From the NCBI GenBank assembly GCA_016879935.1, contig JAACJQ010000378.1, positions 32,487 to 96,486 of the forward strand: a DNA stretch of 64,000 bases. Reading direction: 5' to 3'. This DNA comes from Archangiaceae bacterium. GTDB taxonomy: Bacteria; Myxococcota; Myxococcia; Myxococcales; Myxococcaceae. The notes under the pieces are model-generated. The model was not told the DNA's origin. It was given only the letters and a program-made list of their open reading frames with translations, and searched no databases. The stretch's first letter is position 1; every line of letters starts with the position of its first letter. The translations under genes were made by a program, and so were the position numbers. Below, piece after piece: positions 41,370 through 61,221 of this stretch.

Positions 41370-43505
41370 TCAGCGGGTGCTGATGCGTGCGACGGGCTGA
41401 ATGTTCAGCTCAGGCGACAGCTCCTGGTAGCTCACCACCGAGAACGGCGGATTGAACTCGTACTCGAGCAGCTTTCGCACGTAGCGCCGAATGTCCATCG
41501 ACGTGAGAATCACGGGCCGCTGTGCCGTCGGCGGCAGGTGGCCGCACTCGTTCTTCACGGCCTGCACGATCTCCTGCGCGATGTCGGGCTCGAGGGCCAG
41601 GTGCGTGCCTGCCGAGGTGCGCTTGATCGAGCTGCGAATGGCGTCTTCGATCTGGGGGTCGAGCAGGTACACGATCAGCGTGTTCGTTCCGCGCGCGTAC
41701 TTGTGCGAGACGTAGCGCTTCTGCGACGACCGCACGTGCTCGGTCAGCATCACGCTGTCGGCCTCGGTCTGACCGTGTTCGGCGATGGCCTGCAGAATGC
41801 CGCGCATGTCGCGAATCGAGATCTCCTCTTCGACGAGGCGGCCCAGAACGTCGGTCAGCTTCAAGACGTTGACGACCTTGGGAATGACCTCCTTCACGAT
41901 CGCGGGGAAGGCCTTCTCGAGCTGATCGAGCATCGACTGCACTTCCTGAACGCCCAGGAACTCGCGTGCCTGACGGCGGAGCACGCTGGCGAGGTGCAGA
42001 ATGATGTAGCCCGGCACGTCCCACGTGGTGAGGCCTGCGGCTTCGAGCATCTCCTTGTTCTGCTCCGGCACCCACGCTGCGGGCTGACGGGTCGCAGGGT
42101 TCACGGCCTCGAAGCCTTCGATGTTCATCAGCTTCAGGCGGTCGACCGTGTCGTTCACCAGAATGTGGCCGAGCGTCGCCTGGCCCGTCACGACGGGCAC
42201 CTCGTTGATCTGAATCTGGTACGCGCCCGGCGGCAGGCCGGGGTTTCCACGCGCACGAACCCCGGGGAACCGAACGCCGAGCTCGACGAAGAGACCGTCG
42301 CGCATGAACGGAATCAGCTCGTAGAGGAACTTGCCGCCGTCCTGGCGGGAGTCGACGAAGGGAACCAGCGCGTCGGAGACCTCGAGCACGATCGGCGTCA
42401 CGACGGGGATGAAGAGTTCGGAGTCGGGGTTGATCGGTTCCTTCGGCTGGGGCTCGGCGGCGGCGGGCGTCTCACCGTTCTCGCCGTTCTCAGCACCATC
42501 GGCTTCCGCCACTCCGCCGTCGGCCTTCTTCTTGTCCTTGTTCATCAGCTTGTAGGCGCCGAAGCCGGCGAGCCCGCCCATGACGAAGAAAGGCAGCTTC
42601 GGAAGACCGGGAATGAGACCGAGCGCGATGAGCATGCCGCCCGCGATCGCGATGGCGCGGGGGAAGGCGATCAGCTGACCACCGACGTCCTTACCGAGGT
42701 GGGCACCCTCTTCTTCGCCACCAACGCGGGTGACGATGATGCCTGCGGCGGTCGAGATCAGAATCGCGGGGATCATGCCGACGAGACCGTCACCGATCGT
42801 GAGCAGCGAGTACTTCTTCGCCGCGTCGCCAACGGCCAGGCCCTTCTGCATCACACCAATCGCGAGGCCACCGACGACGTTGACGACGGTGATGATGATG
42901 CCGGCGATCGCGTCGCCTTTGACGAACTTCATCGCGCCGTCCATGGCGCCGAAGAGCTGGCTCTCTCGCTCGAGGTCGCGGCGCTTGCGCTTGCCTTCGT
43001 CCATGTCGATGGAGCCCGCCCGAAGGTCGGCGTCGATCGACATCTGCTTGCCGGGCATGGCGTCGAGGGTGAAACGCGCGGCGACTTCAGAGACGCGCTC
43101 CGAACCCTTCGCGATCACGATGAAGTTCACGATCACGAGAATGACGAAGATGATGCCGCCGACGACGAAGTTGCCGCGCGCCACGAAGTTGCCGAACGAG
43201 TACACGACCTCGCCCGCGTCGCCCGTCGAGAGAATGAGTCGCGTCGTCGAGACCGTCAGGGCCAGCCGGTACATCGTGGTGATCAGCAGGAGCGTGGGAA
43301 ACACGCTGAACTGCAACGCACCGGGAATGTAGATGGTCATCAGCAGGATGATGACCGAGAGGCTGATGTTGATCGTGAGCAGTACGTCCAACACGATCGT
43401 CGGCAACGGCACGATCATCATGCCGATGATCGCGATCACGATGATGGCGAGCGCGATGTCGGAGTACTTGTTGAGGAAGCCTGTCTTGTTTGCAGAAGCG
43501 TCCAT
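41370..43505 (-). CDS. sctV: T3SS export gate protein SctV (FlhA/YscV family)
   Basis: A 711-residue protein. About eight transmembrane segments occupy residues 1-330 (DIALAIIVIAIIGMMIVPLP, FPTLLLITTMYRLALTVSTT), including the conserved FHIPEP-loop region GDAIAGIIITVVNVVGGLAIG and DGLVGMIPAILISTAAGIIVTR. A Glu/Ala-rich linker (about 335-365) leads to the large cytoplasmic domain that forms the nonameric ring and selects substrates. FlhA and SctV are hard to separate by eye, but the rest of the locus is injectisome-like. It is the last gene of the cluster, after two TPR genes, separated by 44 bases. Confidence 0.95.
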   Translation of the reverse strand: MDASANKTGFLNKYSDIALAIIVIAIIGMMIVPLPTIVLDVLLTINISLSVIILLMTIYIPGALQFSVFPTLLLITTMYRLALTVSTTRLILSTGDAGEVVYSFGNFVARGNFVVGGIIFVILVIVNFIVIAKGSERVSEVAARFTLDAMPGKQMSIDADLRAGSIDMDEGKRKRRDLERESQLFGAMDGAMKFVKGDAIAGIIITVVNVVGGLAIGVMQKGLAVGDAAKKYSLLTIGDGLVGMIPAILISTAAGIIVTRVGGEEEGAHLGKDVGGQLIAFPRAIAIAGGMLIALGLIPGLPKLPFFVMGGLAGFGAYKLMNKDKKKADGGVAEADGAENGENGETPAAAEPQPKEPINPDSELFIPVVTPIVLEVSDALVPFVDSRQDGGKFLYELIPFMRDGLFVELGVRFPGVRARGNPGLPPGAYQIQINEVPVVTGQATLGHILVNDTVDRLKLMNIEGFEAVNPATRQPAAWVPEQNKEMLEAAGLTTWDVPGYIILHLASVLRRQAREFLGVQEVQSMLDQLEKAFPAIVKEVIPKVVNVLKLTDVLGRLVEEEISIRDMRGILQAIAEHGQTEADSVMLTEHVRSSQKRYVSHKYARGTNTLIVYLLDPQIEDAIRSSIKRTSAGTHLALEPDIAQEIVQAVKNECGHLPPTAQRPVILTSMDIRRYVRKLLEYEFNPPFSVVSYQELSPELNIQPVARISTR

Positions 43506-43549
43506 CGGGCGGCGAGCCTAACCTAAAGGCCAGCGCCGCGAAGCGCCGG

Positions 43550-44158
43550 TCAGCGCTTGACTGCCCGTCTGGCCATCTGCAGCAGGCGGCGTGCGCGATC
43601 GACGAACGGCTCACTCGACGACCCGAGGCCGATGGCCTTCTGGAGATCATCGATGGCCTGACGAACCCGCTTCTTCTGAAGGCGAATCTCGGCGCGATAG
43701 ACGAGCGCTGCGAGATCTTCGGGGTCCAGCTTCAGCGCCTCTTCGAACCGCGCGAGGGCCTTGTCGAGCTCGTTCTGGGCGAGGTGAATGGTGCCCAGCA
43801 TCGTGAAGACGAAGGCATCGGCCGCGTTGGCGGCGAGCCCCTCGAAGATCACCTTGGCCTCGGCGATCTTCCCTCGTGAGAACAACTCGTGACCCAGCGC
43901 AGCCATGTCTGCGTGCGCTTGCTGAGCCTCGGGAGCGGGCGACTCGTCGCTCAGCGTGGTGCGAGCAAACGAGCCACTCCTGGTGCGCTTCTTCCCACGT
44001 CGAAGTTCGGAGGTGTCCAGCTCCTCCGTCTTCGCGTCTTCGCCCAGATCGTCGCCGAGAAAGATCTCGGGAATCGTCTGGGTGCGACTCACAGTCCGCG
44101 TCGTCTTCTTGGGGAAGTAGACGACGGGGACCGGAGTGGGTTTGCGGGACGACTTCAC
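43550..44158 (-). CDS. TPR protein, T3SS chaperone-like
   Basis: A 202-residue soluble protein. The first 80 residues are basic and probably disordered (RTVSRTQTIPEIFLGDDLGE). Three TPR units follow from about 85: ALGHELFSRGKIAEAKVIF, FVFTMLGTIHLAQNELDKAL, AALVYRAEIRLQKKRVRQA. This resembles the SycD/LcrH class II chaperones of T3SS translocators, with an added leader. It lies 7 bases downstream of a second TPR gene and upstream of sctV. Confidence 0.75.
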   Translation of the reverse strand: MKSSRKPTPVPVVYFPKKTTRTVSRTQTIPEIFLGDDLGEDAKTEELDTSELRRGKKRTRSGSFARTTLSDESPAPEAQQAHADMAALGHELFSRGKIAEAKVIFEGLAANAADAFVFTMLGTIHLAQNELDKALARFEEALKLDPEDLAALVYRAEIRLQKKRVRQAIDDLQKAIGLGSSSEPFVDRARRLLQMARRAVKR

Positions 44159-44165
44159 TGCGCCG

Positions 44166-44837
44166 TCACTTCTTCTTCGCGGGAGCCGCCGACTTCTTCG
44201 CAGGCTCGGCCTTCTTCGCAGGCTCGGCCTTCTTCGCGGGTTCGGCCTTCTTCTTCTCGCCGCCGCCTTCGCCCTGAGCGTTCTCGATCATCTCGAGGGC
44301 AGCAGCCGCGAGCACTCGCGCGCGCAACACGAGGGGATCTTTGCCGGTGGGGTCGAGATCGACCGCCTTCTTGAAGTCCTGCGCGGCCTCCATCACGTTG
44401 CCCATGCGCAGGTGAACTTCGCCGCGGTTGACGTACGCCGCGAGCTCTTTGGGGTTGAAGACGAGCGCGGTGTCGAAGTTGTGCTTGGCGCGCTCGAACT
44501 GATCTTGAGCGAGGTACACCGCACCGAGCGCCGTGTAGTAGTAGGCCTCGCGCGGATCGAGCGCGATGAGGCCGTTGAAGATCGTCTCGGCCTCGCTGTA
44601 CTTGCCGTTCTCGTACATGCGGAAGCCGATCAGCGCCATCTGCAGCATCTCGGGGCCGCTGATCGCGTGGTAGTCCTTCAGCGTCAGCTCGCCATTCTTC
44701 AACATCTCCTGGCGCTCTGGCGTGTAGAGGATCTTCTCGTAGTCCTTCGTGACTTCGCCTGAGATCACCTGGCCCGTCGCGGTCACGGGAATTCCCGGTG
44801 CGATCGGCTTCGGCGGTTCCTTCTTGTCGTTGCTCAT
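44166..44837 (-). CDS. TPR protein, SycD/LcrH-like T3SS chaperone
   Basis: A 223-residue protein. Residues 35-170 carry TPR units that look like class II chaperones (MALIGFRMYENGKYSEAETI, AYYYTALGAVYLAQDQFERA, AAYVNRGEVHLRMGNVMEAA). The tail has three AEPAKK-type repeats and ends in a Lys run. It begins after a terminator that closes the upstream gene 44933-45595, so it may be a new transcript. Its likely client is the secreted-type protein just upstream. Confidence 0.78.
   Translation of the reverse strand: MSNDKKEPPKPIAPGIPVTATGQVISGEVTKDYEKILYTPERQEMLKNGELTLKDYHAISGPEMLQMALIGFRMYENGKYSEAETIFNGLIALDPREAYYYTALGAVYLAQDQFERAKHNFDTALVFNPKELAAYVNRGEVHLRMGNVMEAAQDFKKAVDLDPTGKDPLVLRARVLAAAALEMIENAQGEGGGEKKKAEPAKKAEPAKKAEPAKKSAAPAKKK
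44193..44246 (-). repeat. 18-base tandem repeat in the TPR gene
   Basis: Three adjacent copies of an 18-base unit (44193-44210, 44211-44228, 44229-44246; the third has two changes) encode the AEPAKK repeats at the C-terminus of the TPR protein. The first two copies are identical, so copy number may vary between strains. Confidence 0.75.
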
Positions 44838-44932: not shown

Positions 44933-45595
44933 TCAGCGGAGATTGCGGACCGCGTTGTTCGCGGTGTCGCCCATCGACTTCAGGGTGTTCTGCATCATCT
45001 GCCAGAACATGTTCAGGTTCTGCGAGGCCTGCTGGAAGTTGAACATGTCTTCCTGGAACTTGTTCTGCGCCGCGAGGTCCTTCGGGTCCTTCGGAGGCGT
45101 GGGGTACGAGGGGAACGAGCCGTTGTAGCTCGGGCCGCCCGAGGAGCTCGTGCCACCGGTCGAGGGGCTCGACGGCGTGCCCGTCGAAGCCTGCGTGTTG
45201 GTCGACGGGGTGTTGTTCTGGATCGACGTGGTGCGGCCCGGATCAGCGAGGGGCGGCGTGGTGACGCTGGTGTTCGTGCCGGGAACCGGGCGCTCGGTGG
45301 GCTGGCCAGTGACCATGCTCAGGAGCTTGTCGAGGCCGCCGTTCACCCAGTTCTGGGCGATGTTCTGCAGGCCGGGGGCGTACTTGCCAACCAGGTTCGA
45401 GAGGAGGGGGCCAACGAGGGGAACGTTGCCGAGCAGACCCTGGAGACCCTTGGTGGCGCCTTCGAAGAGGCTCGAGATGCCGTTGCCGGCGATGCCCTTG
45501 AGCGCGTCGACCGCGGCAGGCGCAACGGCCTTGATGACCGAGGTGGCGAGGGGCTTGATGAAGTTGCCGATGCTCTTGAGGCTGACGAATGCCAT
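44933..45595 (-). CDS. Putative T3SS secreted or filament/translocator protein
   Basis: A 220-residue protein from ATG 45595 (MAFVSLKSIG); the longer frame to 45649 lacks a good start context. The N-terminal 110 residues are helical with a hydrophobic stretch (GLLGNVPLVGPLLSNLVG). The middle (about 110-170) is Ser/Thr/Pro/Gly-rich. The last 40 residues are helical and end NTLKSMGDTANNAVRNLR, which matches the end of the 60304-60837 protein. It sits among TPR chaperone genes, without a signal peptide, and is followed by a strong terminator, all fitting a T3SS substrate such as a translocator. The family is not recognised. Confidence 0.6.
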   Translation of the reverse strand: MAFVSLKSIGNFIKPLATSVIKAVAPAAVDALKGIAGNGISSLFEGATKGLQGLLGNVPLVGPLLSNLVGKYAPGLQNIAQNWVNGGLDKLLSMVTGQPTERPVPGTNTSVTTPPLADPGRTTSIQNNTPSTNTQASTGTPSSPSTGGTSSSGGPSYNGSFPSYPTPPKDPKDLAAQNKFQEDMFNFQQASQNLNMFWQMMQNTLKSMGDTANNAVRNLR

Positions 45596-45685: not shown

Positions 45686-46141
45686 TTACTTTCTAGAAAG
45701 TCGCTGTAAGAGCGCGCCGATCTTGTCTTTCAGGGGATCATCGGCCCCCACGTGCTGGGCCGCCCGACGCAGATCCTCGACCGCTCCGCTCCGCTGCCCC
45801 TGAGCCACCTTCACCTCGGCCCTACCCACGTAAGCCGCTGAATCTTGAGGTGAAAGTTTCAAACAGACATCGTACGCGGCCAACGCTCCCGCTGCGTTTC
45901 CGGCGGCCATCTCAACAACGCCAAGGGCCTTTGCAAAATAGGGGTCGAGCGGATTGACCGCATACAGGCCCTGGAAGATGGTTCGCGCTTCTTCGAGTTT
46001 GCCCTGGTAGAAGAAAAAGTAGCCCATGCGCGCGATCGAATAGAGCTCTTCATTCGAGTAGCCGCGCACGTCTTTGAGGGTGGCTTTGCCGTCGGCCCAT
46101 TTCTGGAGCCGGCTCGCGAGCTGGGCGTCGTTGTCGGCCAT
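45686..46141 (-). CDS. TPR protein, SycD/LcrH-like T3SS chaperone
   Basis: A 151-residue protein, the size of the class II chaperones themselves. It has a short helix (LQKWADGKATLKDV), then TPR units ARMGYFFFYQGKLEEART, YFAKALGVVEMAAGNAAGAL and AAYVGRAEVKVAQGQRSGA. Its stop overlaps a 14-base palindrome (45688-45701). It lies 1 base from the upstream gene, so it belongs to the main operon, and it precedes the secreted-type protein 44933-45595, its likely client. Confidence 0.78.
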   Translation of the reverse strand: MADNDAQLASRLQKWADGKATLKDVRGYSNEELYSIARMGYFFFYQGKLEEARTIFQGLYAVNPLDPYFAKALGVVEMAAGNAAGALAAYDVCLKLSPQDSAAYVGRAEVKVAQGQRSGAVEDLRRAAQHVGADDPLKDKIGALLQRLSRK

Positions 46142-46142: not shown

Positions 46143-46619
46143 TCAGTAGGTCTCTTCCGCCTGCTCTTCGCGACGGCGCCGCTCGACCTCGCTCATCGCC
46201 TCGCCCACCATGCCGACGAGGTTGAGCATCTGCGCCTCACGCTGCAGCAACGAACGAAGGCGTTCGACGCGCTCCGGAGCGGCACGCAGCGAAGTCATGC
46301 CCCGCTCCATCTCGGCCTGACGGTACTCGCTCATTCGCTCGGCGACGGTCGAGACGTACGGGCGATCGAGAAAGCCCTCGAGATCGGCGCCATGCCCCAT
46401 GGGCATCGGAGGCATCGGCAACCGCAGCTCTTCGGCCGAGTGCGCCGGGGCGATGAAGTCGAGCAACGCAGCGGAGGCGAGCGCCGGGTTCTTGGGGTCG
46501 CCCTTCTTCTTCGCCTTGGTGGTGACCTGCGTCTTGTCGACGAGCTTGTCGCGAACGTTCCGCGGGCCACCCCACGGCCACAGCGGCGCCTTCGTGGGCT
46601 GTTGTCCAACCTTCGCCAT
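46143..46619 (-). CDS. Hypothetical T3SS-locus protein
   Basis: A 158-residue protein. The first 50 residues are basic (QVTTKAKKKGDPKNPALAS). Then come a Pro/Met-rich segment (ELRLPMPPMPMGHGADLEGF) and a long C-terminal helix rich in Glu and Arg (RMSEYRQAEMERGMTSLR, EVERRRREEQAEETY). No signal peptide or transmembrane helix is visible. The position between the SctU-like domain and a TPR chaperone suggests a T3SS cytoplasmic or secreted protein. I do not recognise it. Confidence 0.55.
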   Translation of the reverse strand: MAKVGQQPTKAPLWPWGGPRNVRDKLVDKTQVTTKAKKKGDPKNPALASAALLDFIAPAHSAEELRLPMPPMPMGHGADLEGFLDRPYVSTVAERMSEYRQAEMERGMTSLRAAPERVERLRSLLQREAQMLNLVGMVGEAMSEVERRRREEQAEETY

Positions 46620-46948: not shown

Positions 46949-48022
46949 TTAGGCGCGCGCCGCTTCGGGGGCCGGGTGTTTGAGCTGGTAGACGAAGTTC
47001 AGCACCTCGGCGACCGCGTCGTAGAGCTCTTCAGGGATCTCCTGGTTGACGTCGGTACGCAGGAGCGCGTGGGCGAGCGGCACGTTTCGCAGCATCGGCA
47101 CGTCCGCATCGCGGGCGATGGCCTTGATGTTCTCGGCCTTGAAGTCGAGGCCCTTGGCGATGACGCGCGGCGCCCCGTCTTTCTCGCGGTCGTACTTGAG
47201 CGCCACCGCCACGTGATCGGGGTTCGTCACGATCACGTCGGCGCCCTTCACGGCCTCCATCTGGGCGCCTTCCATGATCTCCTGGTGCATCTGCTTTCGA
47301 TGCGCCTTGTGGTGGGGGTCGCCTTCGCTCTCCTTGTATTCCTTCTTCAGGTCGTCCTTCGACATCATCTGGTCCTTCATGTACGACTTGTGCTGCCACC
47401 AGACGTCGAAGATCGCGAAGCCGAGGAAGAGCATCGTCACCTTGATGACGACTCGCGAGACGAGCTCTCCCAGCACCGTCATCGTCATGCCCGCGTCGCC
47501 CTGAATCGTCGCCACCACGAGCGCCATTGCGTCGTGCACGACGCCGTAGACGACGTAGCCAGTGACCGAGAGCTTGAACATCGACTTCACGAGCTCGACG
47601 ATCTGTTTCTTGCTGAACATGTTCTTGATGCCCGCAAGCGGGTTCAGCTTCTCGAGCTTGGGCATCAACGATTCGAGGGCGAGCAGCGGCCCGACCTGCA
47701 GGAACTCGAGCAGACCTCCGGTGAGGGCGGCCGCGAACGCGATGGGAATACAGAGAATCAGCAGTGAAGCGAGCGCCAGCGCGAGCATGTGCGCGATCGC
47801 CATGTTCAGCGCCTGCGGGTGCGCGATGTGATCGAACGCGAACTGGAAGAGCATGGTGATGCGCTCCTCCACGGTGCCCCACGTCGACTTCACCACCCCC
47901 ATCGCGACCGCGAAGGCCATCGCGCCCGAGAGGTCCTTCGACTTCCAGACGTTGCCCTGCTTGCGGGCATCGTCGAGCTTCTTCTGAGACGGTTCTTCGG
48001 TCTTGTCACCACCCTCTGACAT
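46949..48022 (-). CDS. sctU: T3SS export apparatus switch protein SctU (FlhB/YscU family)
   Basis: A 357-residue protein. It starts SEGGDKTEEPSQKKLDDARK, the usual FlhB/SctU entry, then four transmembrane segments to about residue 210, then the cytoplasmic part. The self-cleavage site is NPDH at 267-270 (VIVTNPDHVAVALKYDRE); most members have NPTH, so Asp replaces Thr, and cleavage between Asn and Pro should still be possible. The C-domain is duplicated in the next gene, 33 bases downstream. SctU switches substrate class during assembly. Confidence 0.95.
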   Translation of the reverse strand: MSEGGDKTEEPSQKKLDDARKQGNVWKSKDLSGAMAFAVAMGVVKSTWGTVEERITMLFQFAFDHIAHPQALNMAIAHMLALALASLLILCIPIAFAAALTGGLLEFLQVGPLLALESLMPKLEKLNPLAGIKNMFSKKQIVELVKSMFKLSVTGYVVYGVVHDAMALVVATIQGDAGMTMTVLGELVSRVVIKVTMLFLGFAIFDVWWQHKSYMKDQMMSKDDLKKEYKESEGDPHHKAHRKQMHQEIMEGAQMEAVKGADVIVTNPDHVAVALKYDREKDGAPRVIAKGLDFKAENIKAIARDADVPMLRNVPLAHALLRTDVNQEIPEELYDAVAEVLNFVYQLKHPAPEAARA

Positions 48023-53447: not shown

Positions 53448-54770
53448 TCAGGTGGTGGGGGCGTCAGTGAACATGTCGACCAGCCGCTGAACCGTCTCGT
53501 CGAACGGGGTCGAGTCGTGGGTGTCCTGCTTCAAGAAGTTGATGATCTGGTCGTACTTGTCGATGGCGTAGTCGGTGCGAGGGTCGGTTCCGTACTGGTA
53601 GGCGCCGAGCAGAATGAGGTCACGCTGCTTCTCGTAGGTCGACAGGGTCTGACGCAGAATGCCCGCGGCCTTCTTGTGCTCGGGCGTGGCGATCTGGCTC
53701 ATCACACGAGAAAGCGAGGCCAGCACGTCCATCGCGGGCCACTGGTTTCGTTCACCGATGGCGCGGTTGAGAATGAAGTGGCCGTCGAGAATACCGCGGA
53801 CTTCGTCGGCGATGGGCTCTTCCATGTCGCCGCCTGCGACGAGGCACGTGTAGATGGCGGTGCAGCGGCCCTTGTCGCTGTTGCCCGTACGCTCGAGCAT
53901 TCGGGGGAGCATCGAGAACACGCTCGGTGGGTAGCCCTGACGAGCGGGCGGCTCGCCGATGGCGAGGCCGATCTCACGCTGGGCGCGCGCGAGACGCGTC
54001 ACGGTGTCGAGCATGAAGAGCACGTTGCCGCCGCGCTCGCGGAAGTACTCGGCGATCGAGGTGGCGACGTAGCCGGCACGCAGACGCACGAGCGAGGGCT
54101 GATCCGACGTCGCACAGACGACGACCGAGCGCTTCATGCCCTCTTCGCCGAGCGCGTCTTCGATGAACTCGAGCACTTCGCGACCACGCTCGCCGATGAG
54201 GGCGATGACCGAGAGCTCTGCGGCGGTATTGCGCGCGATCTGCCCCATCAACGTCGACTTGCCGACGCCCGAGCCTGCGAAGAGCCCGATGCGCTGGCCT
54301 TCTCCGACGGTGAGCAGGCCATCGATGCAACGCACGCCGAGGGGCAGCGGGCGCGTGATGCGCATGCGCTTGAAGGGGTCAGGGCAGTCGCGATCGACCG
54401 CCCAGTCCTGCATGCCCTCGGTCGGGAGCGGCTTTCCGTCGATGGGTTCTCCCAGCCCGCTCAGCACGCGGCCCAGCAGGCCGTCGCCGGCGCGAATCGT
54501 GAGCGGCCGGCCAGTGGGAATCACTTCGCTGTCGGGGCCGATGCCCGAGAGCTCACCGAGCGGCATGAGCATGACCTGCTCGCCCTGAAAGCCGACGACC
54601 TCGGCGCGCACCGACTGATTGCCGCGCTTGATGATGCAGACCTCGCCGATACGAACGTTCGGCACGGCGGCCTTGATGACGAGGCCGGTGAGCTCGGTGA
54701 CGCGCCCACGCACCCGAACGGTCTGCGCGGTCTTGAGCAGCTCGTGGTACCGCCGCAGGTCGATGGCCAT
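53448..54770 (-). CDS. sctN: T3SS ATPase SctN (FliI/YscN family)
   Basis: A 440-residue F1-beta-like ATPase. Walker A is AGSGVGKST (165-173), preceded by GVRCIDGLLTVGEGQRIGLF. Walker B is NVLFMLDTVTR (249-259). The catalytic glutamate region LIGERGREVLEF and the signature RQGYPPSVFSMLPRMLERTG are intact. It unfolds and releases chaperoned substrates at the base of the machine. It lies 3 bases downstream of sctL. Confidence 0.97.
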   Translation of the reverse strand: MAIDLRRYHELLKTAQTVRVRGRVTELTGLVIKAAVPNVRIGEVCIIKRGNQSVRAEVVGFQGEQVMLMPLGELSGIGPDSEVIPTGRPLTIRAGDGLLGRVLSGLGEPIDGKPLPTEGMQDWAVDRDCPDPFKRMRITRPLPLGVRCIDGLLTVGEGQRIGLFAGSGVGKSTLMGQIARNTAAELSVIALIGERGREVLEFIEDALGEEGMKRSVVVCATSDQPSLVRLRAGYVATSIAEYFRERGGNVLFMLDTVTRLARAQREIGLAIGEPPARQGYPPSVFSMLPRMLERTGNSDKGRCTAIYTCLVAGGDMEEPIADEVRGILDGHFILNRAIGERNQWPAMDVLASLSRVMSQIATPEHKKAAGILRQTLSTYEKQRDLILLGAYQYGTDPRTDYAIDKYDQIINFLKQDTHDSTPFDETVQRLVDMFTDAPTT

Positions 54771-54773: not shown

Positions 54774-55475
54774 TTACTTCGACTCCTTCTTCTGACCGTC
54801 GGGCATGAGCACGTTCTTGAGCATCTCGAACTGGGTGCGAATCTGCCCGTCGATCACGCCGTACTCGGTCTGGATCACGCAGCCGCCCCGCTCCACTTCG
54901 GCGTCGTCGCGAATGGCGATGTCGACTGCGCGACCGATCAGCTCCATCAGTCGAGGGCGCTTCTCACGCAGCACCTTGCCGTCTTCAGGGTGCACCTTGA
55001 GCACCATCGCCTTGCTGCCACGCGCCGACTCGATGGCGGTCGCGCAGATCTCGATGACGACGTCGGGGTCACGCTCGAGGTCGCGGCCGATGATCTTCGC
55101 CGACATCTTGAGCGCCAGCTCGAGCACGTCTTTCTCGGCCTCGGCGACGATCTGCCCAGCCTGCATCTTCGCGCGCGCGAGCTCTTCGGCGGCACGAGCC
55201 TGGACGTCGGCCTTCGCCTCCTCGCGCGCCTTGGCGAAGACCTCTTCTTTGAAACGAAGCGCCTCGGCTTTGATCTCCTCGGCCTTCTTCTGCGCGTCGG
55301 CGATGATCTGTTTGGCGGTGGTCATCGCTTCGAATTCCTCGGCGTTGACGACGCCGCCTCGACGGGGCGGAGGCAAGATCGGCTTCTCCGGTACACCGGC
55401 AACGTGCTCACCACTGCTGTCGCTCTTGATGACCTTCCCGAGCACGCGGGACGGCGGCCGACGTTCGTCTTCCAT
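54774..55475 (-). CDS. sctL: T3SS stator protein SctL (FliH-like)
   Basis: A 233-residue protein. The N-terminal 50 residues are basic and Pro-rich. A long helix follows (TTAKQIIADAQKKAEEIKAE, VQARAAEELARAKMQAGQIV), as in the b-subunit-like part of FliH/SctL. The C-terminal domain (VLELALKMSAKIIGRDLERD; VERGGCVIQTEYGVIDGQIR) matches the delta-subunit-like region that binds the ATPase. It links SctN to the C-ring. It is followed by sctN after 3 bases. Confidence 0.92.
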   Translation of the reverse strand: MEDERRPPSRVLGKVIKSDSSGEHVAGVPEKPILPPPRRGGVVNAEEFEAMTTAKQIIADAQKKAEEIKAEALRFKEEVFAKAREEAKADVQARAAEELARAKMQAGQIVAEAEKDVLELALKMSAKIIGRDLERDPDVVIEICATAIESARGSKAMVLKVHPEDGKVLREKRPRLMELIGRAVDIAIRDDAEVERGGCVIQTEYGVIDGQIRTQFEMLKNVLMPDGQKKESK

Positions 55476-55488: not shown

Positions 55489-56940
55489 CTAGCTCGATCG
55501 TCCGCCCGGTCCACGACCTGAGCCTTTGACGATCGGGCTGCCGTCGGGAGCACGCTCTCGGCGCTTCGGCACGTCCTGAACGGCAGGGGAGGTCATGGCT
55601 CGACGGAGCGGTTTGGCGGGCTGTTTGGGCGGGCCGGCGGTGTCGTTGGGGTCTCGAGCCAGTGGCTTCCCATCACGCATGATCCGCCGCAGGCCCGAGG
55701 CAGACGGGTCATTCGAGGCGCTGCGACTGGCGGGCACGGACGAAGACGATGGCGGCGGAGGGCGGGAGCTCGCGACGCCTGCACGGCGCGCATTTCGCTC
55801 GGCGATCGGATCTCGGCGGGGCCCTGCCGGAACGTCGCGACGGGGCCTTTGAGGTGGGTTCTCGGCGGGTCGAGGCTCCTGCTTCGGGAGCGCGACCGAC
55901 GGGCTGGCACCACTGCGGCGAACGGGTGGCGCGACGACAGGCTGGAGCGTCGGCGGCTGGGGCGCCGCGAGCTGGGGTGGTCGCATCGGGGGCGGCAACC
56001 GCAACGGGCGATCGATCACCCCTCGCTGAGCGAGGCGCTCCATCTGCTCGACGATGTCGAGTCTGCCGCCGTCGCCCTTCACCGGCTTGTTCTTCTCCTC
56101 GCGCAACCATCGCTGGAGCACCTTGCCCAGCTCACCGCCCTGGTGCCGTTCGACGAGGCGCTGCGCGAACTCAGCGCCCTGCGCGACGGCCGCACGAATG
56201 ACGCGCTGAGCCCCAGCGGAGCGCAGGCCCGTCGACGGCTGCTCGAGCGCCCCGTGGATCTCGAGCACGGTCTTCGCGTCACCCTCGGTGAGCCGTCGGG
56301 CCTTCCCCGCTTCGGCGGCCTTGCTGGCGAGCGCGCGCTGATCAGGCGGGAGCTTCGTGAGGAAGGCTTCACGATCGGGGTCAGCGAGCCCGGCGACCGC
56401 CGTCGCGAGCACCCGCGCGCCCATTCGATCGCAGATCGAGAGCACCTCACGCTGCGGCATCATCAGCAGGTCGGTGAAGCGGAAGGTGCCGACCTGGGGC
56501 GCCCCCTGCTTGAGCCCCTCTTCGAGCTTCCAGCGAACGATCGAGAGAATGTCGGGGCGAACGTCACGGGCGAGCTTGATGGTTGGTCGGGGACCGAGCT
56601 CGGCGCGGCAGGCATCGGCGATCTCGGACGGCAGCGCGCGGAGCACCACCTCGACCATCGCGCCGCGCTCTTTCGACAGCAGCGCAGCCAGCCGTTTCGG
56701 GTCGGCGTTGGCGAGCTGACGGCGCCGCGCCATGACGATGCGTTTGATCTCCTGAATGACGAGCGGAATGCGCTTGTCGCGGGGAATCTGGAGCAGGCTC
56801 TGCGCCCGGTGCTTGAGCAGCTCCTCTTCTTCGGGCGCGAGATGTTCGAAGGAGCCGATCGCGTCGGAGCCACCGAACGCCAGCGACGTGAGCAGCAGCA
56901 TCGTCTGCCGCTTGGAGAGTGACGCGAAGAACTGTTCCAC
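55489..56940 (-). CDS. FliG-like protein in the SctK position of a T3SS
   Basis: A 483-residue protein between sctJ and sctL. Residues about 85-240 look like FliG: LSKERGAMVEVVLRALPSEI, then TFRFTDLLMMPQREVLSICD (150-170) and MGARVLATAVAGLADPDREA, followed by QRALASKAAEAGKARRLTEG (201-220). This is the FliG middle-domain pattern (F-x-F-x-D-L, R-x-V/I-L, then R-x-x-x-F). Residues 311-483 are Pro/Arg/Ser-rich and disordered, unlike FliG. In the flagellum FliG joins the MS ring to the C-ring; injectisomes have SctK here instead. No torque-helix charge pattern or stator gene was found. Confidence 0.8.
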   Translation of the reverse strand: MEQFFASLSKRQTMLLLTSLAFGGSDAIGSFEHLAPEEEELLKHRAQSLLQIPRDKRIPLVIQEIKRIVMARRRQLANADPKRLAALLSKERGAMVEVVLRALPSEIADACRAELGPRPTIKLARDVRPDILSIVRWKLEEGLKQGAPQVGTFRFTDLLMMPQREVLSICDRMGARVLATAVAGLADPDREAFLTKLPPDQRALASKAAEAGKARRLTEGDAKTVLEIHGALEQPSTGLRSAGAQRVIRAAVAQGAEFAQRLVERHQGGELGKVLQRWLREEKNKPVKGDGGRLDIVEQMERLAQRGVIDRPLRLPPPMRPPQLAAPQPPTLQPVVAPPVRRSGASPSVALPKQEPRPAENPPQRPRRDVPAGPRRDPIAERNARRAGVASSRPPPPSSSSVPASRSASNDPSASGLRRIMRDGKPLARDPNDTAGPPKQPAKPLRRAMTSPAVQDVPKRRERAPDGSPIVKGSGRGPGGRSS

Positions 56941-56962: not shown

Positions 56963-57769
56963 TCAGCTCTCCTGGGTCTTGGTAGCGCGCGTGGGGCGGC
57001 CGTTGCCGCTGGGCTTGCGAATCGCGAGGAACGCCGCGACGCCCGCGAGCGCCAGGAACAACACTGCGTTGACCGCGACCATCACCTTGAAGGTATCGGC
57101 GCTGGTCTTCTCCATGCGCAAGCCGAGCACCGACTGCGTACGCTTCTCGGGGTCGACGTCCATCGTGGTGACCGACTTCGCCTCGGTCATGAGCACCTTC
57201 ACGTGCTCCTTCTTCATGTCCGTCACCGAGTTCGCGACGAACTCCTGAATGTCGGTCTCCTTGAAGGGGGCCGTGTGCTCGTCGGTGGCGGTGTACTTGA
57301 TGAAGACCGAGGCGGTGGGCAGCGGGCGCTTGTCGGGCTGGGTGAGATCGTTGTTCTCGGGGATCATCACGATCGTGCGCGCCTCGAGCACGCCAGGGTA
57401 GCGATTGAGGGCGTTGGAGATTTCACCCGCGAGCGCCTCGATGAACATCGCGCGCTCTTCGGTCTGGGTGGGGATCATGCCCTTCATGCGCTTGAAGATC
57501 GCGAGGCCGTCGGCCTTGGGCCGCGGGAGCGAGTGATCCTTCAGCAGCTGGGCAGCAGCGGCGACGTCCTGCTTGGGCACGCTGATGATGTAGCGAGGCT
57601 CGTTGCCGCCCTCTTCCTTGAGCTTCGAGGCGCTGATGCCGTTGTGCTGGAGGACGACGTAGATCTCGTTGGCGTCGTCTTCGGTCAGATCGTGCTGAAG
57701 CTCGATGCTGCAGCCAGAGAGCGCCACACAGACGGCGGCGAGAGCGCTTCGAAAGAGATTGCGGGGCAT
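56963..57769 (-). CDS. sctJ: T3SS inner ring lipoprotein SctJ (YscJ/PrgK family)
   Basis: A 268-residue lipoprotein with leader MPRNLFRSALAAVCVALSGC and lipobox LSGC (Cys20). The ring-building domains are present: ELQHDLTEDDANEIYVVLQH, ISVPKQDVAAAAQLLKDHSL, EALAGEISNALNRYPGVLEA, TASVFIKYTATDEHTAPFKE. A transmembrane helix is near 232-252 (VMVAVNAVLFLALAGVAAFL). It forms the inner-membrane ring, the counterpart of FliF. It is SctJ-type, not FliF-type, because it is short and a lipoprotein. Confidence 0.96.
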   Translation of the reverse strand: MPRNLFRSALAAVCVALSGCSIELQHDLTEDDANEIYVVLQHNGISASKLKEEGGNEPRYIISVPKQDVAAAAQLLKDHSLPRPKADGLAIFKRMKGMIPTQTEERAMFIEALAGEISNALNRYPGVLEARTIVMIPENNDLTQPDKRPLPTASVFIKYTATDEHTAPFKETDIQEFVANSVTDMKKEHVKVLMTEAKSVTTMDVDPEKRTQSVLGLRMEKTSADTFKVMVAVNAVLFLALAGVAAFLAIRKPSGNGRPTRATKTQES

Positions 57770-57859: not shown

Positions 57860-58381
57860 TCAGACCTGGGTCTTGAGGGTGTCCTTGAGGCCGCTGGTGG
57901 CCTTCTCGACGACCTTGCCGGTCAGCTCGAGCTCCTGCGTGTACTTGTACATGCCGGCCTGCATCGAGAGCATCTCCGTGTTGGAGAAGTTCGCGCCGTT
58001 GAGGCCGCCGTTGATGAGCTTGTCGATCGACGCCTGGCCCTTCTCCATGTTGGCGACGAGGCCCTTCAGGAGGCTGGTGCCCTTGTTGACTTCGTTCTTC
58101 TGGGCGACGGGATCCATGCCCTTGGCGGTGAGTTTGTCGGAGACCTTGTTGAGGCCGCCCTTCTCGATCTTGCCCGCCGCTTCGATCTGGCGCGCCTTAT
58201 CGGCGTGCTGGACCTGCTGGGTACCCTGAACCTGCTGGGCGTTCTGGGCCTTGTCGACCCCCTGCGTCTTCATCGCCTGGTCGAACTTGCTTGGGCCCGC
58301 CTTGTTGGCCTGTTGGGCCTGCTCGGGCAGCTTCTGCTGGGCGATTTGGGCTGCTGAGATTCCTGCCAGTGGACCCGCCAT
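57860..58381 (-). CDS. sctI: T3SS inner rod protein SctI (PrgJ/YscI-like)
   Basis: A 173-residue protein from ATG 58381, with GAGGAGG a few bases upstream. The first 100 residues are Gln/Ala/Lys-rich and low-complexity (KLPEQAQQANKAGPSKFDQA). The C-terminus is the conserved rod domain: LSMQAGMYKYTQELELTGKV, then EKATSGLKDTLKTQ, close to the YscI/PrgJ pattern that ends Y-x-x-E-x-E-L-x-G-K-x-V-x-K-A-T-S-G. It is placed before sctJ, where flagella have fliE. Its first 185 bases overlap the sigma-factor frame. Confidence 0.9.
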   Translation of the reverse strand: MAGPLAGISAAQIAQQKLPEQAQQANKAGPSKFDQAMKTQGVDKAQNAQQVQGTQQVQHADKARQIEAAGKIEKGGLNKVSDKLTAKGMDPVAQKNEVNKGTSLLKGLVANMEKGQASIDKLINGGLNGANFSNTEMLSMQAGMYKYTQELELTGKVVEKATSGLKDTLKTQV

Positions 58382-59072
58382 TTTGAGGCCTCCTCAAGTC
58401 GTCTACAGGTTCGTTATCGTCTTCATCTTCCAGAAGTTGCTTCAGGCGTTCAACCGCCCGGGCATGCAGGCGACTCGCCCAGCTCTTCGATTGGCCGATC
58501 TCGGCGCCCGCCTCTTCCAGGGTCTTGTTCTGGAAGTAGTAGCCCTGGAGCAATTTTCGCTCTTTTTCCGGCAACTTCTCGATGGCCCCACGCACCCGCC
58601 GCCGCATCTGCTCGAGCTGAATGCGCTCGTCAGGAGGCAGGGCGTCGTCGGACATCTGCATGGCATCGGCGCCGTCGAGGCTGGTCCCGAAAACCATGGC
58701 GAGGCCGGTGACGGCGTTCGAGATGCGCTCCACCTCGTCTTCGAGGCCTCCGCCGCCGCCTTCACGATCGGCGAGGTTGCCGAGGTAGGCGTTCGCTCGC
58801 TCGGCACCCGCGCTCGACCCTTTGAGCACCCCCATCTTGCGGAGGCCGTCGTAGATGGCGCCCTTGATGCGGTAGTGAGCAAAGGTGAGGAAGTTGGCAC
58901 CCACGCGGGCGTCGAAGCGTTCAGCTGCTTCGAGCAGGCCGACCTGGCCCCACGCGACGAGCTCTTCCATCTCGAACTGGGAGTTGAACTGCTTGCGCAC
59001 CTGGGCGGCGAGCGAACGCACGTAGGCGCCGTACTTTTCCAGGATCTGCGCCTTGGATTCCGCGAGAGGCAA
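58197..59072 (-). CDS. Sigma-28-like (FliA-type) RNA polymerase sigma factor
   Basis: A 291-residue protein from TTG 59072. Region 2 spans about residues 25-80 (FNSQFEMEELVAWGQVGLLE, ARVGANFLTFAHYRIKGAIY), region 3 follows to about 150, and region 4 spans about 152-216 (RGAIEKLPEKERKLLQGYYF, NKTLEEAGAEIGQSKSWASR). This layout is that of FliA-type sigma factors. The frame does not stop after region 4: it runs 61 further residues through the start of sctI in another frame, a low-complexity tail. It probably drives T3SS genes. Confidence 0.88.
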   Translation of the reverse strand: MPLAESKAQILEKYGAYVRSLAAQVRKQFNSQFEMEELVAWGQVGLLEAAERFDARVGANFLTFAHYRIKGAIYDGLRKMGVLKGSSAGAERANAYLGNLADREGGGGGLEDEVERISNAVTGLAMVFGTSLDGADAMQMSDDALPPDERIQLEQMRRRVRGAIEKLPEKERKLLQGYYFQNKTLEEAGAEIGQSKSWASRLHARAVERLKQLLEDEDDNEPVDDLRRPQNGGSTGRNLSSPNRPAEAARAGPTGQQGGPKQVRPGDEDAGGRQGPERPAGSGYPAGPARR

Positions 59073-59079: not shown

Positions 59080-59490
59080 TTACTCCTCTTGCTCCGCCTT
59101 GTTCCACAGGCGCTCGAGAGTCTGGGCCAGGCGGGGATCGTCTTTGAGCTGCGCGACGATCTTCTCGGTGAGGTGCTTGGACTGCGTGTGAACCTTGTCG
59201 CGCAGAATGTCCTGCACGAGCTTCTTGGTGGCTTCGTCGCGGCTCTTGATTTGCCCGGCCTTCATCTGGCGGGCGATGTCGAGGGCCTGAGCGACGACGG
59301 GATTGGTCGCAGCGGTCGCGCCGACGTTCGAGGAGCCGACGAGCCCCGAGGGCCCGACGAGTGACTCGGCACGATCGACCTTGGCGCCGAAAGCGCCGCC
59401 GGCCTTCGCTGGTCCGCTCGCGCCGCCAGCTGCCCCAGCGCGGCCCGCACCACCCGCTTTTCCACCTCGACCGACACCGCGAACTGACAT
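59080..59490 (-). CDS. Small helical protein, possible anti-sigma or T3SS factor
   Basis: A 136-residue protein. The first 40 residues are almost only Gly, Ala and Arg. The C-terminal 75 residues are helical (NPVVAQALDIARQMKAGQIK, DEATKKLVQDILRDKVHTQS, EKIVAQLKDDPRLAQTLERL). It ends 8 bases before the sigma factor start, so the two are co-expressed. A small secretable protein next to a FliA-type sigma recalls FlgM, but no sequence match is seen. It could equally be a T3SS structural helper. Confidence 0.55.
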   Translation of the reverse strand: MSVRGVGRGGKAGGAGRAGAAGGASGPAKAGGAFGAKVDRAESLVGPSGLVGSSNVGATAATNPVVAQALDIARQMKAGQIKSRDEATKKLVQDILRDKVHTQSKHLTEKIVAQLKDDPRLAQTLERLWNKAEQEE

Positions 59491-59511
59491 GGGCTCCTCG
59501 ATTGAAGAAGA

Positions 59512-60204
59512 CTAGCGCTTCTTCGGCGCGGCCTTCACCTTTCCGCTGGCGACCTCGAGCAGCTTGTCGGCCAGGGCCTTCTCGTCATCGTTCGGAGTCA
59601 GCTTGAGCGCGGCGTCGATCTCGGCCTTCGCTTCGGCGTTCTTGCCGGTCAACACGTGCACCTCTCCGATGCGCAAGCGCGGCTCGGCAGCCTTGGGCTC
59701 GAACTTCGCGGCGAGCTGAAACGCCTTGATGGCGAAGTCGAACTTCTCGCCACGCTTCTTGTCGTTGGTCTCTTTGAGCGCGCGTTCGAGATCGCTGATG
59801 CCTGCGAAGATCGTGAGGCGATAGGCGAACTCGGCGACGCCGCCGTCGTCTTCGAGATCGCGAGCCGACTGCAGCTCCTTGAGCGCCTCGCCGGTCTTGC
59901 CCATGAAGATGAGAGCCTCGGCACAGTGCGCACGGGCGAGCCCACTCTTCGCGTCGAGGCGCTGCGCGGCGCGGAACGCCTGCAGGGCCTTGTCGTACTT
60001 CTGCTGATTGAACTCGATGGTGCCGAGGGCGAACTGCGCCTGCTTGGTCTTCGGCATGAGTGACGCGACGCCACTGGCGAGCTCGCGAGCGTGATCGAAC
60101 TTCCCGAGATCCATCCACAGGTAGATGGACTCCAGCATGAGCATCGCCTGCTGCTTCGAAACGGGGAGGATGCTGCCGGCGATGTCTGACTTCGTCTCGG
60201 CCAT
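59512..60204 (-). CDS. TPR protein, T3SS chaperone-like
   Basis: A 230-residue protein with TPR units in the first 130 residues (AMLMLESIYLWMDLGKFDHA, AQFALGTIEFNQQKYDKALQ, ARAHCAEALIFMGKTGEALK) and another pair near 150-210 (FAIKAFQLAAKFEPKAAEPR). The tail is basic. The N-terminus QQAMLMLESIYLWMDLGKFD is like the start of SycD/LcrH chaperones. It lies just after the terminator of the needle-like gene, whose product may be its client. Confidence 0.78.
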   Translation of the reverse strand: MAETKSDIAGSILPVSKQQAMLMLESIYLWMDLGKFDHARELASGVASLMPKTKQAQFALGTIEFNQQKYDKALQAFRAAQRLDAKSGLARAHCAEALIFMGKTGEALKELQSARDLEDDGGVAEFAYRLTIFAGISDLERALKETNDKKRGEKFDFAIKAFQLAAKFEPKAAEPRLRIGEVHVLTGKNAEAKAEIDAALKLTPNDDEKALADKLLEVASGKVKAAPKKR

Positions 60205-60250
60205 TGTGGCGCTGTCCTTTCAGTGGGGAACGCAGGCCGTGAATAGCACA

Positions 60251-60276
60251 AAGGGCGACCGTTTCCGGTCGCCCTC
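60251..60276 (-). terminator. Intrinsic terminator after the needle-like gene
   Basis: A perfect hairpin with arms GGGCGACCG and CGGTCGCCC and loop of four bases (60253-60274). On the minus strand TTTG follows, a short T run. It ends the 60304-60837 transcript before the TPR gene. Confidence 0.75.
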
Positions 60277-60303
60277 GGTGTTCGCTGCTGAAGCAACCTT
60301 CGC

Positions 60304-60837
60304 TTAGCGCGCGTTCTGAATGGTGTTCTTCACCGTGTCGTGCTTGCCCTTCATGACGTTCGAGATCGAGGTGTACGTCATGTTCTCACGCTGCATCTGG
60401 TACTGCAGCTTGAGCATGTTGCTCATCTCGCCGCTCATGCCGGCGATGGCCTGGTTGCCCATGCCGACGTCGTTCGACGAGACGCCCGCGCCGAAGTTCG
60501 CGCTCGGACCAGCGCCGCCGACCATCGGGCCGCCGTTGTTGCCACCGACGGTGGTGTTGATGCCCGTGCCGCCGCCGACGTTCACCATGCCCGACGCCGC
60601 GTAGGAGCCCGACGAGGCGCCGCCGATGTGGCTCGAGACCGACGAGATGGCAGCCGAGACGATGCCCGCACCGGGGAGCGCGTTGCCGAGCAGACCAACA
60701 CCCGACGCCAGAGCACCCGTGGCGTTGCTGAGACCAGCCTGCATGCGCTGACCGAAGTCGACGCCCTGCGACTGCTTGTTGACGGTGAAGTTGGTGGAGA
60801 GACGAGCAGGGGTCGAGTCAATGCGATTGACGGCCAT
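60304..60837 (-). CDS. Putative T3SS needle, filament or translocator subunit
   Basis: A 177-residue protein from ATG 60837, with GGAGG in its leader at 60842-60846. The N-terminus is polar (NKQSQGVDFGQRMQAGLSN), a hydrophobic Gly/Ala stretch follows (ASGVGLLGNALPGAGIVSAA), then a Gly/Ser/Asn-rich middle. The last 40 residues are helical and end SNVMKGKHDTVKNTIQNAR. The same end is seen in 44933-45595. No signal peptide is present. The terminator behind it, the TPR gene next to it and this amphipathic C-terminus suggest a T3SS-exported subunit. No canonical SctF was found, so this could be the needle or an extracellular filament. Confidence 0.6.
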   Translation of the reverse strand: MAVNRIDSTPARLSTNFTVNKQSQGVDFGQRMQAGLSNATGALASGVGLLGNALPGAGIVSAAISSVSSHIGGASSGSYAASGMVNVGGGTGINTTVGGNNGGPMVGGAGPSANFGAGVSSNDVGMGNQAIAGMSGEMSNMLKLQYQMQRENMTYTSISNVMKGKHDTVKNTIQNAR

Positions 60838-60954
60838 AAAACCTCCAGGAGTGCTGCGTGAAGTGTCAGGGTCTTGTTTCCGCCAGCACCTGCCAGCGCC
60901 GCCCTGTGCTCTCATTTTCGGCGAACTGCATCGTGAGTTGCGAACCGGGCTCCT

Positions 60955-61221
60955 TCAGCGCTTACCCTTTCGCTCCGACGCAATCTTTTCGCGCACTTGG
61001 AGGAGGTGGGACATCAGCTCTTCAGTGCGCTCGATGGCCTTCGAGACTTTCTTGGCCTGATCGGCCTTGGGCCCTTTCATGGTCGAGAGCCCGTCTTTGA
61101 GCGACTGGAAGAGTGCGTCGATGTCGGTCTGCTGGGCCTTGTCGACGAAGGTGGCGATCGCCGGGTACTCGGGCTGGGGCATCGGGGGGCGGGAGGGCTC
61201 TTCGTTCTTGCGGGCGGCCAT
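60955..61221 (-). CDS. Small helical protein of the T3SS locus
   Basis: An 88-residue protein with a Pro-rich start (NEEPSRPPMPQPEYPAIATF) and two charged helices (VDKAQQTDIDALFQSLKDGL; VSKAIERTEELMSHLLQVRE), ending in a basic tail. The size equals needle subunits, but the charged C-terminus does not suit a polymer. A chaperone or regulator is more likely. It lies 17 bases after the HEAT gene, so both are in one operon. Not recognised. Confidence 0.55.
   Translation of the reverse strand: MAARKNEEPSRPPMPQPEYPAIATFVDKAQQTDIDALFQSLKDGLSTMKGPKADQAKKVSKAIERTEELMSHLLQVREKIASERKGKR

Follow-up and report, generated by a model that had tools for sequence, protein, structure and literature searches.

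How does a type III secretion system (T3SS) with neither a needle nor an outer-membrane pore deliver its cargo? This question, left unexplained in the sections of PMC10433427 and PMC12075869 that are cited here, is raised again by a stretch of 64,000 nucleotides from an Archangiaceae bacterium (assembly GCA_016879935.1, contig JAACJQ010000378.1, positions 32,487 to 96,486; hereafter the window), in which all the named T3SS genes lie on the minus strand between positions 41370 and 61221. An earlier note, made from the letters of the window, had read them as an injectisome-type T3SS in flagellar gene order without a secretin, and as a candidate evolutionary intermediate. It had added that secretin-less myxobacterial systems were described as early-branching, which is what the cited part of Abby & Rocha 2012 (PMC3459982) states: they are placed there as an early-branching intermediate between flagellum and injectisome, FliG is given as absent and the needle is argued to have been lost. 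The intermediate status had thus already been proposed in print. FliO was reported in the group in 2025 (PMC12403147, in the part cited). For T3SS*, the system of this kind in Myxococcus xanthus, the cited section of PMC10433427 states that a needle homologue is lacking. According to the corresponding sections of PMC12075869, T3SS* is required for prey lysis, meets the Kil apparatus at prey contact and fails to localise there without Kil, and the Discussion suggests the Kil tips as a substitute for the missing needle.

Our reading, to which we give a probability of roughly 0.6, is that the cluster is the secretin-less T3SS of the myxobacteria, likely the orthologue of T3SS*, and that it includes a FliG-type ring protein as well as needle-family proteins; the machine is therefore likely not needleless. 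It differs from the view of PMC12075869 in that needle-family proteins would be encoded within the T3SS cluster itself, as suggested by remote homology and gene position. Within the open-licence papers covered, both the FliG and the needle-family proteins of the cluster appear to be new. The new information lies in p88, p203, TPR230, p136 and p238, none of which the earlier note had mentioned.

The candidate needle proteins are p203, encoded upstream of sctI, and p238, encoded in a slot before sctV. The two have a common C-terminal region and group in iterated profiles with small proteins, which are the products of needle-sized genes (about 71–78 residues) found in the p238 slot in loci of Myxococcus, Corallococcus, Archangium, Hyalangium and Citreicoccus. 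These small genes occur in tandem in A. lansinium (six) and Citreicoccus (three), and singly in several others. Profiles were built from ten small relatives without p203 (A1; one member has 114 residues), from 25 p203 sequences (A2) and from 60 of the 114 database homologues (A6). The Pfam needle family PF09392 matches five of the ten A1 proteins (best E 6.8e-5) and 18 of the 60 A6 members (best E 4.5e-5), and ranks first among 20 families in the latter, both by number of matches and by score. Its alignment with the small protein P0001 is nearly full length (model positions 3–70 to residues 4–71 of 71), at a local score of 23.4 bits against a cut-off of 29.4, and four of the 114 homologues carry a precomputed PF09392 label. 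A search of the PDB with A1 (E <= 10) returned nine matches. Seven are PrgI/MxiH needles of the T3SS with E of 0.4–1.4, an eighth is a 43-residue chain filed under a needle co-chaperone (E 0.0032), and the ninth is an unrelated chain (0.29). The same 43-residue chain was found with A6 (1.1e-4) and was the best of six matches with A2 (0.061), the remaining five being unrelated. A1 and A2 match one another with a probability of 96%. Control profiles of SctI and p136 gave no needle match in the PDB; in profile comparisons SctI was linked weakly to p203 (15%) and not to the small proteins.

A number of observations weigh against this assignment. The PrgI/MxiH matches are weak and are lost with A6, where two unrelated chains enter; two unrelated families match 17 and 16 of the 60 A6 members (best E 0.0025 and 0.00084, respectively); and the NCBIfam needle model matches none of the ten small A1 members. 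The p203 and p238 proteins of the window have no needle match in Pfam at E <= 1 and lie above no curated needle cut-off. Since the SctI profile matched an unrelated coiled coil at E 0.0029, a PDB profile E of about 0.003 is unsafe on its own. For p203, AlphaFold gives a poor model (mean predicted local distance difference test score, 50). The C-terminal helix that the proteins have in common could be a signal for export or for a chaperone. M. xanthus AM003 has its small gene (74 residues) on the other strand from the cluster, and Pfam gives no match for it; a second small-gene piece is interrupted by the contig end. The needle-family scores are weak, and it is the position of the genes that is the evidence.

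This position is highly regular. The p203 gene lies upstream of sctI in all 28 loci with space there, and it is preceded by p88 and followed by a tetratricopeptide repeat (TPR) gene in 28 of 29 loci. In the second, short T3SS of these bacteria, p203 immediately precedes sctI in each of the four loci that reach it. The genes of the ysc cluster run E-F-G-H-I-J-K-L and then N-O-P-Q-R-S-T-U. By this order, we take p203 to occupy the needle slot, p88 the position of sctE and TPR230 that of sctG, which makes TPR230 a candidate needle chaperone. Profile searches do not add to these assignments: the p88 profile (18 sequences) found no T3SS protein among its four PDB matches (best E 0.8), and the TPR230 profile found TPR proteins, with no T3SS chaperone named among the best 60 of 90 matches. 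An identification of p88 as SctE and of TPR230 as SctG by profile was consequently given up, as it had no specific support, and position alone is claimed. Of the 147 genomes that represent the class, 124 have the p203 family; none of the 12 listed f7 genomes does. The ratio of nonsynonymous to synonymous substitution rates (dN/dS), obtained from one pairwise comparison for each gene against one close relative, is 0.04–0.17 for sctN, sctI, p88, fliG and p203, with p203 and FliG under purifying selection. p238 evolves fast (0.70, versus 0.165 for p203), which would fit an exposed part.

Genome-wide searches point to the same genes. Over the whole of this genome (E <= 0.01), A1 has only two matches: one at the C-terminus of p203 (2.1e-6), the other, in the short T3SS, at the p203 paralogue (3.1e-8). 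PF09392 was run over 96 Myxococcaceae genomes and 14 control genomes at E <= 10. It gave some match in 92 of the 96 and exceeded its curated cut-off (29.4 bits) in one, where the matching gene (33 bits) is of the p238 type and is flanked by TPR genes and p158. The best match could be placed in 73 of the 92 genomes and compared with the places of p203. It overlaps the p203 gene in 43 of them, shares its contig at a distance of 2–17 kb in nine (eight of these at 15–17 kb, which corresponds to the slot before sctV) and is elsewhere in 21. Six of these 21 were opened (L181–L186), and all proved to be open reading frames of the p203/p238 family, three of them adjoining TPR genes. By simple arithmetic, chance would place about 0.6% of matches within a 60-kb neighbourhood of a 10-Mb genome. 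In genome G133, which has the coordinates of M. xanthus AM003, the best match falls in p203 (E 0.028).

These results have to be set against several others. A1 misses p238 in its own genome, and PF09392 yields a single, unplaced match in this genome, at E 1.63. Of the 73 best matches, just 16 fall below an E of 0.01, the others ranging from 0.012 to 0.65, and the 73 genomes are not independent because they are related. Matches below the cut-off also occur in six of the 14 control genomes, so the PF09392 score says little by itself. Taking profile and position together, we consider that p203, p238 and their relatives are likely remote homologues of the T3SS needle family. Two further genes were encountered on the way: a needle-like gene of A. 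lansinium about 3.3 Mb distant from the T3SS cluster (L149, 9534–9797), and a gene for a 117-residue p203-like protein near sctJ and sctN in the distant lineage CSSED10-310 (L073, 7955–8308).

The same genes can be read in another way. The T3SS may be truly needleless, p203 and p238 being exported effectors or translocators whose C-terminal helix serves the TPR chaperones as binding and export signal, with the Kil pilus tips carrying the cargo. That p203-family genes adjoin TPR genes is in line with this explanation, as is the occurrence of the C-terminal region in proteins of very different length, up to the 476 residues of a NolX/HrpK1-like protein of M. xanthus; the tips have moreover been proposed to take the place of the missing needle (PMC12075869, in the part cited). 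However, the genes of 71–78 residues contain little beyond this C-terminal region, the needle model spans one of them almost entirely, and two different T3SSs have p203 upstream of sctI, the short one as its immediate neighbour. We therefore regard a needleless machine as unlikely, and prefer the reading with needle-family proteins.

Two kinds of protein outside the needle question were noted as candidate cargo. The 476-residue NolX/HrpK1-like protein of M. xanthus AM003 (L148, 2998–4956; E 1.9e-5 and 8.1e-4, below the cut-offs) is encoded on another contig beside a TPR gene. Its C-terminal region is similar to the needle family (A1, E 1.1e-4), and it is a possible translocator. A protein with a DUF1521 domain, which occurs in rhizobial type III effectors, is encoded in the slot before sctV in M. 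xanthus (L147, 862–2073; E 1.5e-14) and A. lansinium (L091, 7731–8831; E 7.4e-15). Neither kind turned up in the genome of the window, in searches that had no positive control and do not show absence.

The second unexpected component is the FliG-type protein. A FliG homologue sits between sctJ and sctL in 44 of 47 loci, the three misses all being non-myxobacterial. In the window protein, the middle and C-terminal domains of FliG extend over about residues 79–313 and are followed by a long low-confidence tail. The FliG_C domain is recognised by Pfam (PF01706, E 3.7e-8), all six PDB matches of its profile are FliG, its hhalign comparison with the flagellar FliG of the same genome gives 91% (E 9e-7), and fold searches support a FliG middle/C-terminal domain fold. 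FliG_N has no Pfam match at E <= 1, and most FliG alignments begin at residue 79–80. SctK is not among the 50 rows listed for each of two fold searches, from which we draw no conclusion. The absence of FliG published for the myxobacterial systems (PMC3459982, in the part cited) is firmly contradicted by these sequence comparisons.

The protein is nevertheless unlikely to be a motor part. At the torque positions, as numbered after E. coli, the flagellar FliG of this genome retains K, R, D, D and K. In the 29 homologues of the cluster protein, by comparison, the lysine is replaced by alanine in 29, the arginine by aspartate in 27 (histidine in the other two), the first aspartate by lysine or arginine in 29, and the second by alanine, serine or histidine in 29. 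The fifth position stays basic (R or K) in 23 of the 29, which does not agree with a complete loss. As judged from its residues, the FliG-type protein is without the main torque charges, and, as given above, it is under purifying selection. In the ysc order, its gene presumably occupies the SctK slot. In the short T3SS, a protein of 143–171 residues is encoded between sctJ and sctQ, at the FliG/SctK place (L078, 2181–2612; L094, 15669–16160; L093, 4657–5172).

The remainder of the export apparatus was typed by the curated NCBIfam cut-offs for T3SS and flagellar models, with Pfam for the domains. SctV scores 807 bits as a T3SS protein (cut-off 692) versus 686 as FlhA (772), SctN 630 (605) versus at most 593 as FliI (630), SctU 375 (358) versus 327 as FlhB (349), SctR 230 (209) versus 206 as FliP (217) and SctQ 129 (101) versus 79 as FliM (220). 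SctS exceeds both cut-offs, and SctT and SctJ are below both. By these models, SctV, SctN, SctU, SctR and SctQ are a non-flagellar export core. Of the two proteins to which the earlier note had ascribed an injectisome type, SctJ scores 137.6 bits as SctJ versus 32.8 as FliF, and SctI is identified by position and a weak PF17001 match (E 0.039). The parts of flagellar kind that the note had listed are there: FliG through its FliG_C domain, FliO (PF04347), the FliM domain of SctQ (PF02154) and a signal-like stretch at the N-terminus of SctR, reminiscent of FliP. Its sigma-28-like factor is indeed FliA/WhiG-like in its matches, although its score of 108.5 bits is below the family cut-off of 189.6. 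Pfam matched no secretin, hook, flagellin or stator family among the cluster proteins. An SctV tree of 31 rows unites the cluster protein with four rows of the long type (100/100). This group joins another of four short-type rows (100/100), and both stand apart from the remaining 22, the FlhA of the same genome among them; SctV thus falls outside the flagellar rows. Because the tree includes too few injectisome rows, the placement of the myxobacterial group, and with it the intermediate status, is left undecided by it. A GG(A/T)G motif of SctQ (47 of 56 open reading frames) was at one point read as a FliG-binding motif; this was dropped because the FliM of the same genome shows no motif in that form.

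The genome (9.5 Mb in 445 contigs, 95% complete) holds three export systems: the window cluster, a short T3SS apparently split over contigs C232 and C327, and a flagellum. All ten genes tested on contigs C117 and C156 are flagellar, namely FliG (with N, M and C domains), FlgE, MotA, MotB, FliM, an FlgE/F/G-type rod protein, FlgK, flagellin, FliD and FlgH, and the flagellar contigs (L075, L079, L080) carry their own FlhA-type gene, i.e. a separate export gate. The lack of hook, flagellin, stator and secretin genes that had been stated for the locus thus applies to the cluster, and not to the genome. Hook and flagellin genes elsewhere, which the earlier note would have counted against its reading, exist in the letter and do not touch its substance, because the flagellum has its own export gate. 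Conceivably, the cluster could provide this flagellum with spare parts for export and the C-ring, the genome being flagellate and the cluster having FliG, FliO and a FliM domain. This is highly improbable: the flagellar contigs encode their own FliG, FliM, MotA, MotB, hook protein and flagellin besides the FlhA-type gene, SctV falls outside the flagellar rows of the tree, and flagellin was matched in just three of 18 members of the family (14 of 60 members of the order searched, this genome included), whereas both the cluster and p203 occur widely in it. A flagellar reading of the cluster was rejected on the SctV tree and the separate gene set of C117/C156.

Equally remote is the explanation that the cluster is a functionless, degenerate relic of an injectisome or flagellum. 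It would account for the missing secretin, hook and stator, and an earlier annotation as a relic is mentioned in the cited part of PMC3459982. However, gene order and reading frames are kept across the Myxococcaceae loci, and the dN/dS of sctN, sctI, p88, fliG and p203 is low. Furthermore, the reported need for T3SS* in prey lysis (PMC12075869, in the part cited) already refutes a relic in M. xanthus, if the orthology holds.

This orthology is very probable from the gene sequences. SctN was used to scan named genomes, which yielded 62 loci. Fifty-three of these are 77–98% identical and labelled as myxobacterial or simply as 'Proteobacteria' or 'Deltaproteobacteria', apart from one Comamonas record; the other nine (43–56%) come from four Sericytochromatia, two SAR324, an uncultured proteobacterium, CSSED10-310 and a Neisseriaceae. 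The M. xanthus AM003 SctN is 83% identical, and an orthologous cluster is present there (L033, L147, L150), with FliG and needle-family matches by profile. Of the two SctV matches in this strain, one lies in the long cluster and one in a second, short cluster. The published T3SS* (MXAN_2434–2464) carries SctL, SctN and several LcrH-like genes (PMC10433427, in the part cited). As this content fits the long cluster, the cluster of the window is likely the T3SS* orthologue, the identity with MXAN_2434–2464 being deduced from gene content. That the cluster might be a new system was rejected, because orthologues occur in 53 of the 62 loci and the group is already in print. Two side observations concern the scan itself: the record labelled Comamonas sp. 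KCTC 72670 (L035) has a Myxococcus-type cluster and its label is probably wrong, and the SctN/FliI proteins of the Sericytochromatia (L062, L064, L065, L071) are 55–56% identical to the window SctN.

The features of the locus are collected in Table 1. The order of the named genes from sctI to sctV is that given in the earlier note. After sctU come a free gene for a second SctU/FlhB C-domain, p158, a TPR gene, p238, two more TPR genes and sctV. The free C-domain gene adjoins sctU in 35 of 36 loci and fliO sits between sctQ and sctR in 38 of 39. Neither p158 nor p136 has a confident family in Pfam or NCBIfam, and the p136 profile matched two PDB chains, both unrelated and neither a needle. The contig (C364) stops at the right edge of the window, position 64000. 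On the other side, a TPR protein with a lipoprotein-like start and the double-FHA protein (together 38596–40757) are convergent with sctV, and the pair also flanks the cluster in A. lansinium and Citreicoccus. The double-FHA gene is beside sctV in both of these, with a fragment only in M. xanthus. Judging by its sequence, it is a conserved neighbour that is possibly what other annotators call SctD; no periplasmic part is seen in it, as it ends right past the hydrophobic stretch, and no genome-wide search for SctD was made.

Table 1. Features of the T3SS cluster and its neighbour in the window, from the right edge to the left.
Feature	Position	Strand	Evidence
p88, small conserved protein preceding p203	60955..61221	-	Pfam best MxiM E 0.11; dN/dS 0.11
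p203, likely needle-family protein with added N-terminal part, 177 aa from likely start	60304..60837	-	profile A1 E 2.1e-6; dN/dS 0.165
TPR230, TPR protein directly after p203	59512..60204	-	TPR families; HrpB1_HrpK at E 0.037 only
p136, conserved protein	59080..59490	-	17 sequences aligned
sigma factor, FliA/WhiG-like	58197..59072	-	Sigma70_r2/r4; TIGR02479 108.5 bits (cut-off 189.6)
sctI, inner rod protein	57860..58381	-	PF17001 E 0.039 (weak); precedes sctJ; dN/dS 0.078
sctJ, inner ring protein, lipoprotein-like start	56963..57769	-	PF01514 2.3e-22; TIGR02544 137.6 bits (cut-off 161.95)
FliG-type C-ring protein	55489..56940	-	PF01706 3.7e-8; PDB profile, hhalign and fold searches
sctL/FliH	54774..55475	-	PF02108 4.7e-20
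sctN, ATPase	53448..54770	-	TIGR02546 629.7 bits, above cut-off 604.75
sctO, YscO-like	52910..53416	-	PF16789 1.6e-36
sctP/FliK, likely start (open frame extends to 53438)	51918..52913	-	PF02120 Flg_hook 1.5e-6, 28.3 bits, slightly below cut-off 29.8
sctQ, FliM domain and FliMN_C	50479..51894	-	PF02154 7.8e-12; PF01052 2e-24; TIGR02551 above cut-off
fliO	49953..50477	-	PF04347 6.3e-11
sctR, likely start, signal-like N-terminus	49144..49935	-	PF00813 5.7e-69; TIGR01102 above cut-off
sctS	48870..49136	-	PF01313 1.4e-27
sctT	48035..48865	-	PF01311 2.3e-50
sctU	46949..48022	-	TIGR01404 above cut-off
second SctU/FlhB cytoplasmic domain, free gene, 90 aa	46643..46915	-	PF01312 C-part 3.1e-27
p158, conserved protein	46143..46619	-	41 homologous open reading frames among loci
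TPR151	45686..46141	-	TPR families
p238, fast-evolving p203-family member, 220 aa from likely start	44933..45595	-	iterated profiles; dN/dS 0.70
TPR223	44166..44837	-	TPR families
TPR202	43550..44158	-	TPR families
sctV	41370..43505	-	TIGR01399 807 bits (cut-off 692)
double-FHA protein, C-terminal end is one hydrophobic stretch	39681..40757	+	PF00498/PF16697; sequence

The cluster resembles three known machines. With the published myxobacterial T3SS and T3SS* it shares the lineage, the core genes, their order, the TPR genes (LcrH-like in the papers) and the lack of a linked secretin, but the cited parts describe these systems as being without FliG (PMC3459982) and without a needle (PMC3459982, PMC10433427), both of which are found by profile here. 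The order p88-p203-TPR-p136-(sigma)-sctI-sctJ-FliG-sctL-N-O-P-Q-(FliO)-R-S-T-U is close to that of the Ysc injectisome. The cluster differs from the latter in that a linked secretin is missing, that we could see no periplasmic part of an SctD, that a FliG-type protein takes the place of SctK, and that FliO is present. With a flagellum it shares the middle and C-terminal domains of FliG, the FliM domain, FliO, the order of the genes and a FliA/WhiG-like sigma factor; in contrast to a flagellum, it has no matched hook, filament or stator, its export proteins score as non-flagellar and the main torque charges of its FliG are lost, and a separate flagellar set exists.

The outer-membrane exit would have to be sought elsewhere. 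There are five secretin matches (four open frames) in the genome, on C430, C182, C269 and C376, and none on C364; the genome-wide search thus leaves the cluster without a linked secretin, as had been stated. In the C269 secretin, a pilus-N and a BON domain accompany the secretin domain, and next to it are encoded, in this order, an FHA-T2SSE ATPase and an FHA protein, an arrangement that looks Tad/Kil-like. The Tad/Kil pilus apparatus, encoded at a separate locus and a separate machine, is our proposed partner in the outer membrane. It counts against this proposal that in the present genome the link to Tad would follow from gene content.

On the preferred reading, with needle-family proteins in the cluster, SctJ, the FliG-type protein and SctQ would form a flagellar-style C-ring without a stator, acting as a sorting platform rather than a motor. 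SctN, SctL and SctO, together with SctRSTUV and FliO, would first export SctI and p203, kept ready by the neighbouring TPR proteins, and in the periplasm these two would assemble into a short rod and needle. A second, variable axial part may be formed by p238 or, in the relatives, by the small proteins. In the absence of a dedicated secretin, the structure or its cargo would leave through the outer-membrane ring of the Tad/Kil apparatus. Carried to its end, this would make the system a hybrid injector, in which a stator-less, FliG-containing base of flagellar type polymerises its own needle from p203 together with variable subunits (p238-type or small tandem ones). The needle would be pushed through a docked Tad/Kil secretin, and the system would represent a present-day stage between flagellum and injectisome with a borrowed pore. 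We put this extended form forward tentatively and think it rather improbable as a whole.

With candidate needle genes at hand (p203 and the genes before sctV), delivery becomes a question of gene deletion and imaging in Myxococcus. If our reading is true, the early-branching myxobacterial group did not lose the needle and keeps FliG at what we take to be the SctK place, so that it retains more of both machines than was thought. Furthermore, if a needle and the Tad secretin cooperate, a secretin need not belong to the T3SS in order to provide its exit.

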